Of a stretch of 64,000 bases of DNA, positions 15,901 through 62,678 are shown piece by piece. Source of the stretch: Alphaproteobacteria bacterium (GTDB lineage Bacteria; Pseudomonadota; Alphaproteobacteria; Rhizobiales; Xanthobacteraceae); the NCBI GenBank assembly GCA_037200445.1, contig JBBCGH010000001.1:1-64000 (forward strand). Reading direction: 5' to 3'. Every line of letters begins with the position of its first letter. Positions within the stretch are counted from its first letter, which is position 1. The notes below the pieces were generated by a model. The model saw only the letters and a program-made list of their open reading frames with translations, was not told the DNA's origin and made no database searches. Both the position numbers and the translations under genes were made by a program.

Positions 15901-15977
15901 AGGGCGGGCAAAGCGAAGCGTGCCCGCCGCACTGCGGCAAGATGGCGGGCACGTCGCTTCGCTCCTTTGCCCGCCCT
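15901..15977. repeat. Long inverted repeat (agggcgggcaaagcgaagcg type)
   Basis: The left arm at 15901..15928 (agggcgggcaaagcgaagcg followed by tgcccgcc) pairs with 15944..15977 around a loop of about 15 bases, with a few unpaired bases in the right arm. It lies in the 255-base gap before the enoyl-CoA hydratase. A shorter relative, gcgggcaaggc/gcctttgcccgc, is at 60739..60763. Confidence 0.75.
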
Positions 15978-16059
15978 ACGGCTCAGCGGCGCGCCACCCG
16001 TTTGCCTCTCCCTCCCCGCTCCGCTACGCAATCGGACAAATTCACCCGGGACAAGCGCC

Positions 16060-16833
16060 ATGGCTTACGAAACCATCATCGTCGAAACCAAGGGCCGGGT
16101 CGGGATCATCCGCCTCAACCGGCCGCAGGCGCTCAACGCCCTCAATGCGCAGCTCAATACCGACCTCGCCGCCGCGATCGACGCGTTCGAGGCGGACGAC
16201 GCGATCGGCTGCGTGATCCTCACCGGCTCCGAGAAGGCGTTCGCGGCCGGCGCCGACATCAAGGAGATGTCGGGCAAGAGCCACATGGACGTCTACGGCC
16301 AGGACTTCCCCGGAAGCTGGGACCGCGTCGCACGCATGCGCAAGCCGGCAATTGCTGCGGTCTCGGGGTTTGCGCTGGGTGGCGGCTGCGAGCTCGCGAT
16401 GCAATGCGACATCATCATCGCGGCCGACACGGCGAAATTCGGCCAGCCCGAGATCAAGCTCGGTGTCATCCCGGGCATCGGCGGCACGCAGCGCCTGACG
16501 CGCGCCGTCGGCAAGGCGAAGGCGATGGACTTGAATTTGACCGGCCGCATGATGGACGCCGCCGAAGCGGAGCGCTCCGGGCTTGTGGCGCGCGTGGTGC
16601 CGGCCGCGAGCCTGATGGACGAGGCGATGAAATGCGCGGAGACCATCGCCTCCATGTCGCTCGTCGCCGTGATGACCGCGAAGGAGGCGGTGAACCGCGC
16701 CTTCGAGACCACGCTCGCCGAGGGCATCCGCTTCGAGCGGCGCACCTTCCAGGCGCTGTTCGCCACCCACGATCAGAAGGAAGGCATGGCGGCCTTCATC
16801 GAGAAGCGGCCGGCGAAGTTCGAGAACAGGTAA
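16060..16833 (+). CDS. Enoyl-CoA hydratase
   Basis: A 257-residue crotonase-family enzyme that hydrates 2-enoyl-CoA in beta-oxidation. The oxyanion-hole motifs are [11 protein letters not shown] and [13 protein letters not shown]. Both catalytic glutamates are present, one in GGGCELAM and one in [12 protein letters not shown], which separates true hydratases from other crotonases. The N-terminus [20 protein letters not shown] fits the family, so the ATG at 16060 was taken, although the frame is open to 15967. No other fatty-acid-degradation genes are adjacent. The stop codon is followed one base later by a palindromic element. Confidence 0.93.
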
Positions 16834-17262
16834 CTGTGTCCCGGACGCGATGCATCGCAGATCCGGGGCCGCATACACTCAGGCCGGCACGAAGTGATCT
16901 TCCATCAAATCCCGCCATTCGGGGTTGGATTCGTCAACGAGCGCAAGCTTCCACGCGCGGCGCCATCGCTTCAAACTATGCTCGCGCGCACGCGCCTCGG
17001 TGATCGAGGCATATTCCTCAAAATAGACCAATCGAATGACGCCATGCTCTCGTGTGAAGCCGGGTACCGCCTTCGATCGATGCTGAAACATCCTGCGATG
17101 CAGATCGTTCGTCACGCCGACATACAACACGCCATAGCGGCGGTTTGTCAGGATGTAGACTTAGTAACGACGCATCGAACAAGCCCCACGGCCTGCAATT
17201 TGTACGGTCCCGGGTCTGCACTGCAGCACTGCGTGCCGCAGTGCGCCCGGGACATAAGTTCA
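16834..17262. mobile_element. Composite palindromic element carrying a GIY-YIG gene
   Basis: The left hairpin at 16834..16873 reads tgtgtcccgga, then the perfect palindrome gcgatgcatcgc, then agatccgggg. The right hairpin at 17204..17256 pairs gtcccggg..tgcactgc with gcagtgc..cccgggac. Between them lies only a minus-strand GIY-YIG nuclease gene. Two other loci (19468..19610 and 62546..62678) have the same two hairpins without the gene. The element starts one base after the hydratase stop and ends inside the stop codon of the opposite gene. Calling it mobile is an inference from this loaded/empty comparison. Confidence 0.65.
16879..17175 (-). pseudogene. GIY-YIG nuclease family protein with in-frame stop at codon 5
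   Basis: Reading from the ATG at 17175 gives MRRY, then TAA (17161..17163), then VYILTNRRYGVLYVGVTNDL. In the common small single-domain GIY-YIG proteins (98 codons here), codon 5 would be a tyrosine or similar residue. VYI and YVG are the GIY and YIG halves. The catalytic arginine region (LHRRMFQHR) and the conserved tail (LKRWRRAWKLALVDESNPEW) are intact. A GTG at 17130 could restart translation, but without the GIY strand. The stop can arise from a tyrosine codon by one base change. It sits inside a palindromic element. Confidence 0.75.
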
Positions 17263-18612
17263 TTTCCTCACACAGATCACGCGCACGATCGAGGCCTTCG
17301 CGGCCTCGACGCCGGCCGCAGCGCCACTCGCCGGCGCCACATTCTGCGCATCGAGGAAGTTGCGCACGGTCTCGACCGGGGTGAGCGCGGCGCTGGTGAC
17401 CGGCGTTGGCGCGGCGCCCGCGACCATCGGCACTTTCAGCGACGCGATGCCGGCGAGCCGGCCTTGCGCATCGAGCGCGGCGGCGCCATCGAAGCCGACG
17501 GCTGGCGCAGGATCGAGCGCGAGCGCCTCGGTCACGCGCGCCCTTGCGGCGCTCACCGCGCCACCACCGCCCTGCGCCTGCGGGTCCGCGACGCCGAGCA
17601 GCGTGACGTCGCCTTTCGGGTTCTCACCCGCGAGCGCGATCGCCTTGAGCGGCGCGCCGTAGACGCGCAGCAGCGCCAGCCCCTTGTCCTTGTCTTCCGC
17701 CGCGCGATCCGCGCCGCCGATCCCCGCGACCGTGACGACGTTACACCCGTCGAGCGCCTCGCGGCTCGTCAGGATGTGGCCGGGGCTGACCGCGACGCCG
17801 CTCGCGTATTCGACCTTGCGCCGCGACGGCGGCGCGGTGCCGGTGGGGAACGCCGCGTACGCGCTCGACATCGCGACCACCACCGGCTCCATGATGCCGG
17901 CCATCGCCTGGTCGTAGAGCACCGTGAAGCCGCGCACCTCGTCGCCGCGCAACTGTGCGCGCAGATAGAACTTCTTCAGGTTCTGCAGGCCGGAGATGAC
18001 AAAGAAGTCCGGGCGCAGCACGCTGTACTCGGTCTGCCGCCCGGCCGGCTCCTTCTTCATGCGCTCGAAGATGGGCGCCAGGGCGCCGGCCTGCGCGATG
18101 CGGAAGGTTTCGGCCTGCGCTTCGCCGCGCGAGGACGACCATTTGCTGATGCCGCCGGAGACCTGCGTGTTCGGCATCAGCTTGGCGGGAATCCCGAGCC
18201 GCGCGCCGGTGACGAGGTCTTGCACGATGCGCCAGCCGACCGCCTCCTGCTTCGGCTTGGCGGCGGCGGCAAGGGCCGCGCGCTCCGGCTGGTTGAGCAC
18301 GCCGGTTTCTTTCCCGCCGTTGCGCTTCTGGAACGCCTTGACGGCCGCGATCGCGCGCTCGCCGAAATCGCCGTTGATCAGGCCGTTGTAGTCCCCGGTC
18401 CAGACCAGGTCGTTCTGGATCGCGATGCGTTCGGTCAGCGGAATCGCCGTGTAGGAGGCGGCGGTCGCGTCGAGCGCGGCCTTCTGCTCGGCCTTGGGGG
18501 CTTTCGCCTTCTGCTTGGCGGGCGCTGCCTTCGCGGCGTCCTGCTTGGCGGGCTCCGCGGCCGCGAAGCTTAACGCCACAAAACAGGACAGCAGGGCTCC
18601 GGCGAGCCTCAT
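17260..18612 (-). CDS. Exported peptidoglycan-binding protein with degenerate trypsin-like domain
   Basis: A 450-residue exported protein. The signal peptide (RLAGALLSCFVALSFAAAEP) is followed by a lysine/alanine-rich linker. A peptidoglycan_binding_1-type domain lies at about residues 60-120 (NDLVWTGDYNGLINGDFGER). The C-terminal half resembles a trypsin-like serine protease, but all three catalytic positions are changed. ILTSREAL replaces LTNAHVV (His lost), GLALLRV replaces DLALLRV (Asp lost), and GFDGAAALD replaces GDSGGPLLD (Ser lost). It should bind rather than cleave. The ATG at 18612 has a gagg site; 18624 is an alternative. Its stop codon lies in the end of the neighbouring repeat. 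Divergent from the ThiF/MoeB gene. Confidence 0.75.
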   Translation of the reverse strand: MRLAGALLSCFVALSFAAAEPAKQDAAKAAPAKQKAKAPKAEQKAALDATAASYTAIPLTERIAIQNDLVWTGDYNGLINGDFGERAIAAVKAFQKRNGGKETGVLNQPERAALAAAAKPKQEAVGWRIVQDLVTGARLGIPAKLMPNTQVSGGISKWSSSRGEAQAETFRIAQAGALAPIFERMKKEPAGRQTEYSVLRPDFFVISGLQNLKKFYLRAQLRGDEVRGFTVLYDQAMAGIMEPVVVAMSSAYAAFPTGTAPPSRRKVEYASGVAVSPGHILTSREALDGCNVVTVAGIGGADRAAEDKDKGLALLRVYGAPLKAIALAGENPKGDVTLLGVADPQAQGGGGAVSAARARVTEALALDPAPAVGFDGAAALDAQGRLAGIASLKVPMVAGAAPTPVTSAALTPVETVRNFLDAQNVAPASGAAAGVEAAKASIVRVICVRK

Positions 18613-18665
18613 CGCGCACCTCATGCTATAGGCCAAGCGTAACGGATCGAGACGATGGTGCAACC

Positions 18666-19467: not shown

Positions 19468-19610
19468 CTGTGTCCCGCACGCGATGCAGCGCCCCCTTGC
19501 GGTGCATCGCAGATGCGGGACCGCCCGAAACTCCGGAGTTTATGGCGATCCCGGGTCTGCGTCGCGTCACTCCATGCCGCGCCGCGCCCGGGATGACGCC
19601 TTCGGCGTCA
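19468..19610. repeat. Composite palindromic element, empty form
   Basis: Left hairpin: tgtgtcccgcacgcgatgc, a short loop, then gcatcgcagatgcggga. The middle hairpin uses the palindrome aaactccggagttt. Right hairpin: gatcccggg.. with ..cccgggatgac, followed by gacgccttcggcgtc. It has the same plan as 16834..17262 but no gene inside. It starts two bases after the ThiF/MoeB stop and ends in the stop codon of the convergent gene (19608..19610). Confidence 0.75.
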
Positions 19611-22696: not shown

Positions 22697-22708
22697 AAGC
22701 AGGCTAGT

Positions 22709-22753
22709 GCATGATCCCGAAAAGTGGGAACCGGTTTTCGGAAAAGATCATGC
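22709..22753. repeat. gcatgatc...gatcatgc dispersed repeat, copy 1
   Basis: A 45-base element bounded by gcatgatc and gatcatgc, with core cgaaaagtgggaaccggttt. Two further copies are at 31215..31259 and 31319..31363 in the opposite orientation. This sequence is very frequent in Rhizobiales intergenic regions (general knowledge). Confidence 0.8.
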
Positions 22754-22765
22754 GCAAACAAAAGG

Positions 22766-22808
22766 CTAGAGCGCGACTCCGATTCAACCAAGAACGATAG
22801 CGCTCTAG
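22766..22808. repeat. CTAGAGCG-ended palindromic element next to irr
   Basis: A 43-base segment with perfect 8-base terminal inverted repeats, ctagagcg and cgctctag. The terminal CTAG contains the TAG stop codon of irr (22805..22807). It lies 12 bases from the preceding repeat. Confidence 0.65.
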
Positions 22809-30997: not shown

Positions 30998-31214
30998 TTC
31001 GGTTTTCTCTCATCGGTTATCCGGAAGAGGGAAAGCCATGAGCAAGACGGCGAGACGCTGCCGCGCGAAATCCTCGCGCGCACCCAGCCAGCGTCCGGCG
31101 ATCCTGCCATGGCTTTGCGGTCTTCCTTCTCGGTTAGCGCGGGCGGACCTTTCCATCCCGGCTTTACTCGGCAGCTCTTGAGAGCTGGCCAGACAACGGC
31201 GGATTTTTCGTTGA

Positions 31215-31259
31215 GCATGATCTTTTCCGAAAACCGGTTCCCACTTTTCGGGATCATGC
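31215..31259. repeat. gcatgatc...gatcatgc dispersed repeat, copy 2
   Basis: Starts gcatgatcttttccgaaaac, continues cggttcccacttttcgg and ends gatcatgc. It is the reverse complement of the copy at 22709..22753 apart from a single-base indel or substitution in the arms. It is 60 bases from copy 3. Confidence 0.85.
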
Positions 31260-31318
31260 TCACGCCCGCCTTCAGCGCGCGCGGAAACTCAATGCCGCGC
31301 GCGAAGACTCTTAGTTTC

Positions 31319-31363
31319 GCATGATCTTGTCCGAAAACCGGTTCCCACTTTTCGGGATCATGC
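31319..31363. repeat. gcatgatc...gatcatgc dispersed repeat, copy 3
   Basis: Starts gcatgatcttgtccgaaaac and ends gatcatgc. It has the same orientation as copy 2, differing by one base in the first arm. It ends two bases before the rpsO stop codon (31365..31367), so it forms the immediate 3' flank of that gene. Confidence 0.85.
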
Positions 31364-31364
31364 G

Positions 31365-31634
31365 CTAGCGGCGAATGCCAAGCTTATCGATCAGCGTCTT
31401 GTAACGCCCCTCGTTGGTGCGCTTGAGATAATCGAGCAGCTGGCGGCGCTGCGAGACCATCTTGAGAAGGCCGCGCCGCGAATGGTTGTCTTTCACATGG
31501 GTCTTGAAGTGGTCGGTGAGAGTGTTGATCCGCTCAGAGAGGATCGCGACCTGCACCTCGGGCGACCCGGTGTCGCCCTTCGTGGTTGCATACGACTTGA
31601 TGATTTCGGCCTTGCGGCCGGCTTCCAGCGACAT
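31365..31634 (-). CDS. rpsO: 30S ribosomal protein S15
   Basis: S15 is an 89-residue primary 16S rRNA-binding protein. The product has the standard motifs [35 protein letters not shown] and the end LIDKLGIRR. The ATG at 31634 gives exactly 89 residues; the TTG at 31640 is an unneeded extension. An aaggt site precedes it. truB ends two bases upstream, so truB and rpsO are probably one transcript. pnp follows. Confidence 0.97.
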
Positions 31635-62545: not shown

Positions 62546-62678
62546 CTGTGTCCCGCACGCGATGCCGCGCGTCTTCGCGGTGCATCGCAGATGCGGGACC
62601 GCCCCAAGCTGAGCTCTTGGCGGTCCCGGTTCAGCAGCGCATCATTTCATGCTGCGCTGCGCCCGGGACACGAGTTCA
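62546..62678. repeat. Composite palindromic element, empty form, second copy
   Basis: Left hairpin: tgtgtcccgcacgcgatgc with gcatcgcagatgcggga. Middle hairpin: gaccgcc..caag with cttg..gcggtc. Right hairpin: tcccgg..cagcagcgca with tgctgcgctgcgcccggga. It begins two bases after the carbamoyltransferase stop and ends in the mutM stop codon (62676..62678). It has the same design as 19468..19610 and as the gene-bearing element at 16834..17262. Confidence 0.75.

Follow-up and report, generated by a model that had tools for sequence, protein, structure and literature searches.

In the window, by which we mean the whole 64,000-nucleotide stretch analysed here, two convergent open reading frames (15967-16833 and 17260-18663) are separated by a gap that is nearly filled by a single element of 418 bp (16837-17254; outer ends TGTC...GACA). 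It consists of a small GIY-YIG nuclease gene on the minus strand (16879-17175; PF01541, E = 8.8e-15) enclosed by two hairpins, an arrangement proposed in the initial annotation and borne out here by the Pfam match and by both folds. The right hairpin (17207-17253) folds with a z of -5.14 (0 of 200 shuffles as good), and matches to it of approximately 50 bp are present elsewhere in the host genome and in relatives. The left hairpin (16838-16869), of the TGTCCCGG type, is recognized by its fold together with a 17-mer at 16837-16853; taken alone, the fold is weak (z -1.9, matched or bettered by 12 of 200 shuffles). The translated gene contains one in-frame TAA (17161-17163), directly 5' of the first motif strand and absent from the initial annotation, so this copy of the nuclease is probably dead. 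Are the hairpins there by chance? They could be terminators or common intergenic repeats that hitchhike beside small genes, and the position of the element between convergent genes fits such a view, since REPs in general are common there according to the available sections of one study (PMC3733652).

The same hairpins are also found as pairs with a short spacer in place of the gene. Two gene-free copies had been suggested within the window, at 19468-19610 and 62546-62678. We recover both, at 19471-19597 (outer end ATGAC) and at 62549-62670 (identified by fold, 17-mer match and right end); their fold z values are -7.3 and -7.1, respectively, with 0 of 200 shuffles as good in each case. These gene-free elements are approximately 125 bp long. 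Across the 5.84 Mb host genome (one contig), the left-hairpin 17-mer, which has one position that is G or C, occurs at 16 places exactly and at 35 with no more than one mismatch; at two mismatches there are 57 places, and the reversed control gives 7. A few of the matches represent both hairpins of a single element. Among the 30 places that we fetched, the right end lies 110-171 bp away in 20 and has a doubtful match (73 bp) in one, while our search pattern did not find it in eight; the window copy, with 417 bp between its ends, contains the nuclease gene. Hairpins of the window type have a TGTC foot and longer, bulged stems. An A-T step is present in the right hairpin of 19471-19597 and absent from the other window hairpins. 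In several hairpins of this type (L203, L212, L222, L224 and L226 in the host; L262 in a relative) the tip holds a second palindrome of approximately 50 bp (CCATAAGGCCGC...GCGTCGGCTATGG or its complement), as if the loop had been targeted by another repeat. The window also carries another family of dispersed repeats, whose ends are inverted (GCATGATCTT...GGGATCATGC, 58-65 nt) and whose three copies (22699-22767, 31202-31269 and 31305-31369) are about 90% alike.

The host genome has eight PF01541 matches, and five of these genes belong to the subfamily of the window gene (motifs VYIL, YIGVTN and EH). All five lie among inverted hairpins, which are of three sequence types. The expectation that other GIY-YIG genes of the host would be associated with the hairpins therefore holds for the four further members of the subfamily, but their hairpins are of other sequence families than the one in the window. 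The window gene and three genes with a short hairpin type (GTCATYGCCCGC-loop-GCGGGCRAYCCAG and close variants) are each enclosed by two head-out hairpins. The fifth gene (L005) has a complete pair of a long hairpin type (GTCATCCCGG...) on each side and thus lies beside pairs, not inside one. At least three of the five copies are disrupted (TAA, TAG, split frame). One host locus with a long GIY-YIG ORF (L006) has a short pair on a single side.

Using a covariance model, we find at least 143 hairpins of the short type in the host genome, a lower bound given that 150 of 6618 candidates were scored. Neighbors less than 600 bp apart make up 53 pairs, all but one of which are head-out. The spacers of these 52 head-out pairs fall into two groups, 9-57 bp (49 pairs) and 343-357 bp (3 pairs), and each of the three long-spacer pairs contains one short-type GIY-YIG gene, a bimodality that speaks against chance proximity of hairpins and gene. 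By eye, the dimers L168-L197 have near-identical hairpins and unrelated spacers, often with two different hairpins in a pair. Short-type pairs with and without the gene have in common their hairpins and the inner CCAGTAA/TTACTGG tails. GIY-YIG homing endonucleases are a known class, and the shared hairpins and tails would suit a selfish endonuclease of this kind, at home in a REP pair, that would cleave pairs lacking the gene and be copied into these via hairpin homology, the hairpins themselves having arisen otherwise. We regard this homing scenario as the main rival to the interpretation given below, albeit an unlikely one.

Does the association extend beyond this genome? We searched with the protein only, allowing one genome per species, and examined the best 80 of 570 confirmed loci. 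Judging from the record titles, these 80 span many phyla, including Patescibacteria, Planctomycetes, Ignavibacteria, Omnitrophota and Bacteroidetes; ten of them are orthologous Bradyrhizobium loci, so the number of independent cases is smaller. In the 250-bp bins that flank the gene on its two sides, strict hairpins (GTC, stem, CCA) reach densities of 3.3 and 4.1 per kb, compared to a mean of approximately 0.1 per kb over the remaining bins up to 5 kb away. Such a hairpin is present upstream in 54 loci, downstream in 60, and on both sides in 47. The nearest one points head-out in 44 of 54 cases upstream and 51 of 60 downstream (the remaining 10 and 9 do not). When any tail is accepted (stem 7 or more, loop 9 or less), GTC-headed hairpins flank both sides of 54 of the 80 loci and of none of 393 shifted positions; among single control windows, 53 of 1317 have such a hairpin. 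With loops up to 45 allowed, the corresponding counts are 60 of 80 and 4 of 393. Both the head-out orientation and the two-sided flanking run counter to the notion that the hairpins merely happen to lie beside small genes, which we consider very improbable.

The foot of these hairpins is specific. In a scan of all 64 trinucleotides, GTC gives the most two-sided loci (54 of 80) while the median is 0; the next feet (TCA, 49; TGT, 24; CAT, 14; CGT, 9) are shifted reads of YGTCAT. GTAG-headed hairpins flank none of the 80 loci on either side. In our alignment of short hairpins, the first pair is A-T in 44 of 45 and most stems are 8-9 bp. The rows were chosen by GTC, stem and CCA, so that foot, pairing and tail are partly built into this alignment; the trinucleotide scan supports the GTC foot without this bias. 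Within a locus, left and right stems agree in 6.85 of 8 bases, compared to 5.66 when shuffled (0 of 2000 shuffles as high; n = 33, nine Bradyrhizobium rows dropped). Of the 13 loci with no strict hit, 12 were inspected by eye, together with L044; 12 of the 13 loci inspected have, on one side or both, a hairpin with a GTC foot whose loop is long or whose tail differs, and L105 has only a degraded one. A separate case is found on plasmid p1 of Planktothrix agardhii (L229), where a GIY-YIG gene lies between a type IIL restriction enzyme gene and drmA. It is surrounded by GTCATTCTGAG.../...CAGGATGAC repeats, which suggests that repeats of this type may be part of the same GIY-YIG/hairpin system.

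Other GIY-YIG subfamilies do not show this pattern. In 12 alphaproteobacterial genomes with at least 10 hairpins and without the window subfamily, none of 19 other GIY-YIG loci is hairpin-flanked, neither the 12 with long UvrC-like ORFs nor the 7 small ones (UPF0213 membership unassigned), again in conflict with chance. The nuclease gene is present in 72 of 240 Alphaproteobacteria. At least five model hairpins are found in 50 of these 72 genomes, compared to 17 of the 168 gene-negative ones (odds ratio 20, p-value 5E-20, in a test that, like the one below, ignores phylogeny); the initial annotation had raised the prospect that the hairpins might be equally common without the gene, and they are not. 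Counting genomes with any model hairpin, 58 of the 72 gene-positive genomes qualify, while 128 of the 168 gene-negative ones have zero, as if the hairpins need the gene, which speaks against homing into hairpins of other origin. On the other hand, hairpins do persist in genomes without the gene, as homing would have it. The exceptions are 14 of the 72 gene-positive genomes that lack model hairpins and 12 of the 168 gene-negative genomes that have 10 or more. In a sample of 200 Pseudomonadota, five or more hairpins are present in 28 of 43 gene-positive and 20 of 157 gene-negative genomes (p-value 3E-11). Gene-positive genomes outside the Alphaproteobacteria in this sample have at least five hairpins in 15 of 16 cases, and 14 gene-negative genomes have at least 10. 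The hairpin-rich, gene-negative genomes may represent relics, incomplete assemblies or more distant enzymes.

The nuclease is approximately 95 amino acids long and has PF01541 (GIY-YIG; 1E-13, over the cut-off) as its sole Pfam family; we take the subfamily to be COG2827. Five residues (G22, R30, H34, E55 and N86) are invariant in 36 sequences, and the catalytic roles presumably attach to the conserved R, H, E and N of the GIY-YIG fold. AlphaFold2 predicts a GIY-YIG fold (pLDDT 94). The structures matched by this model are GIY-YIG nucleases; the nearest solved folds include Slx1, and I-TevI is among the matches, a point in favor of homing. Slx1 is a eukaryotic branched-DNA nuclease with the partner Slx4, and we know of no repeat association for it. 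Among 10 Bradyrhizobium orthologs (45 pairs), the median dN/dS is 0.033 and the maximum is 0.076, so the protein is kept there by strong purifying selection. The gene is inherited vertically in Bradyrhizobium. Of 72,556 plasmid records, 33 carry it, many of these being as large as a megaplasmid or a chromosome, and a search of 50,697 phage records did not find it; in these respects it is unlike a freely jumping transposon. The resemblance to Slx1, the selection and the vertical inheritance would all suit a service to the host, in which the nuclease resolves or trims repeat cruciforms and so protects replication, the adjacency serves regulation and the repeats spread otherwise. A housekeeping gene, however, would have no need to lie between the repeats, to exist in several copies, to decay where it stands, or to be confined to 72 of 240 genomes, and we find such a role distinctly unlikely, less likely than homing and more likely than chance.

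Hairpin type goes with nuclease clade. A hairpin of the window type (GTCCCGG, on either side) accompanies 18 of 23 genes whose products share 60% identity or more with the protein of the window (the window gene included), 4 of 49 at 50-60% identity, and none of 70 below 50%. A tree of the proteins has 21 changes of hairpin class, compared to 44.1 with shuffled labels (0 of 500 shuffles as low). Shared host ancestry may account for part of this agreement. Within the host genome, sequence-divergent nuclease genes carry different hairpin types; host ancestry is no confounder there, but this is a single case.

We are also interested in how the sites change over time. The initial annotation had proposed a search for empty orthologous sites in sister strains: in two relatives of the same genus the nuclease gene is indeed absent from the window site, but other repeats are present there. 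No movement was seen, and no base-exact insertion could be read at the window site, at the sites of four host dimers compared with two sister species, in 10-kb windows of Bradyrhizobium, or in Sphingobium and Rhizobium replicons, since intergenic divergence obscures the exact junctions. The compared sites vary in content and hold a cassette, a lone hairpin, another repeat, or nothing. Among the host dimers, L173 is common to the sister species G241, L169 is common to G241 and degraded in the sister species G240, and L171 is absent from both; in the two that are common to a sister species, the hairpins are conserved and the spacers have diverged. The L170 site has a different repeat pair in G240. 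At L170, L139 and L140, the intergenic sites of sister species have different repeats (CATCCTGAG type) or none; sites therefore turn over between repeat families.

Two loci are informative about the relation of full and gene-free elements. A replicon of Sinorhizobium meliloti has a full cassette and, 124 bp away, a 159-bp pair (L239, 1160-1318) that is a copy of this cassette with an internal deletion: the middle of the gene is gone, while its 3' part, the inner tails and the hairpins are kept. Judging from the sequence, hairpin, gene and hairpin were evidently duplicated as a unit and the gene-free pair then arose by deletion. This derivation of a gene-free pair from a full one speaks against homing. 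In Sphingobium, the site between fnrL and a response-regulator gene has the cassette in 7 replicons and lacks it in 4. In an alignment of four of the seven with the cassette and all four without, two of those without it keep one hairpin and both outer ends. Such a site could be read as a homing target, but a deletion between direct arm repeats explains the lone hairpin equally well, and the presence/absence polymorphism carries no direction of change.

The computations show an association that is general, clade-specific and two-sided, with bimodal spacing and co-occurrence across genomes. They strongly support linking this GIY-YIG subfamily to the GTC-footed hairpin repeats. The idea that nuclease and palindrome form a REP-like unit based on a different enzyme gains strong support well beyond the window; the tie, however, is to hairpins that share an architecture and not to the one palindrome seen there. 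We infer that the nuclease cleaves and mobilizes the hairpins and think it fairly likely that the subfamily is their dedicated enzyme, which cuts and spreads them. Counting against this reading are the sites at which no movement was seen, the gene L005 beside its pairs, the nearest hairpins that do not point head-out, the exceptions to co-occurrence, the vertical inheritance and the rarity on plasmids, and the disrupted host copies. The full element would be hairpin, GIY-YIG gene and hairpin with outer GTC feet; in the short element, a few tens of bases would separate the two hairpins in place of the gene. In the proposed mechanism, the nuclease would recognize an extruded hairpin with its GTC foot and make a structure-specific nick or cut at the hairpin or foot; recombination or replication repair could then copy short and full elements to new places. 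Gene-free elements would rely on a nuclease encoded elsewhere in the genome. The subfamily would thus serve the CGTC-tagged REPs and their longer-stem relatives, as RAYT transposases serve the GTAG REPs, and the window element is best explained as a decayed copy of such a two-part REP system. It is tempting to go further and to hypothesize a class of bacterial mobile elements that ranges from Alphaproteobacteria as far as Patescibacteria, Planctomycetes and Ignavibacteria. Its sole mobilizing enzyme would be a single-domain GIY-YIG nuclease that cuts GTC-footed hairpins, and much of the CGTC-type repeat content of bacterial genomes would be its non-autonomous offspring; on this broader proposal we find ourselves evenly divided.

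The GIY-YIG subfamily is a strong candidate for the enzyme missing from a class of repeats that is widespread in bacteria. The CGTC-tagged REPs were set apart in 2013 as the large REP superfamily without a dedicated enzyme, as the available sections of that study put it (PMC3733652), and a small, foldable candidate protein makes the question of their enzyme directly testable. If the proposal is true, unrelated enzymes have become the basis of REP-like systems on at least two occasions. This would be a notable convergence, and a transposase-like role would be added to those of GIY-YIG nucleases.

How does the system compare to known ones? The sharing of the fold with Slx1 is no proof of a shared function. 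The small UPF0213 GIY-YIG proteins (1zg2, 1ywl) have the same single-domain fold and length (approximately 95 amino acids), but the sequence similarity is weak (E-values of 0.006 and 0.1). The Sinorhizobium locus, with an internally deleted copy beside a full one, resembles MITEs and their autonomous transposons; the elements described here differ in having hairpin ends and no transposase.

A closer likeness is to the CGTC-tagged REPs themselves. In the available sections of Di Nocera et al. (2013; PMC3733652), these have a CGTC/TGTC foot, a stem of 8-9 bp that starts with A-T, a loop of 4-5 and a CCA tail; they form head-to-head pairs, occur mostly in Alphaproteobacteria including Bradyrhizobium, and have no associated transposase genes, so that they are apparently without a dedicated transposase, for which early loss of the enzyme or the use of borrowed enzymes was proposed. 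Our short-stem hairpins match this description in foot, stem, loop and tail. They also match in the predominance of head-to-head pairs (52 of 53 close pairs in the host are head-out, taking head-out as the HH of that paper). The differences, as far as those sections go, are the GIY-YIG gene found inside pairs here and the window type, with longer stems that are often without the A-T step. Our full-text searches of open-access papers turned up no link of CGTC-tagged REPs to GIY-YIG genes and no later naming of a dedicated enzyme.

The overall architecture is that of the REPIN-RAYT (TnpA-REP) system. The two have several features in common: inverted palindromes on both sides of a nuclease gene, inverted pairs without the gene scattered across the genome, an unpaired foot at the base of the palindrome, and an enzyme clade tied to a repeat type. 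The enzyme, however, is a Y1 HUH transposase there and a GIY-YIG nuclease here, and the foot is GTAG there and CGTC/TGTC here. Because both enzyme and foot differ, the GIY-YIG/hairpin system is REPIN-RAYT-like in its architecture and not a member of that group.
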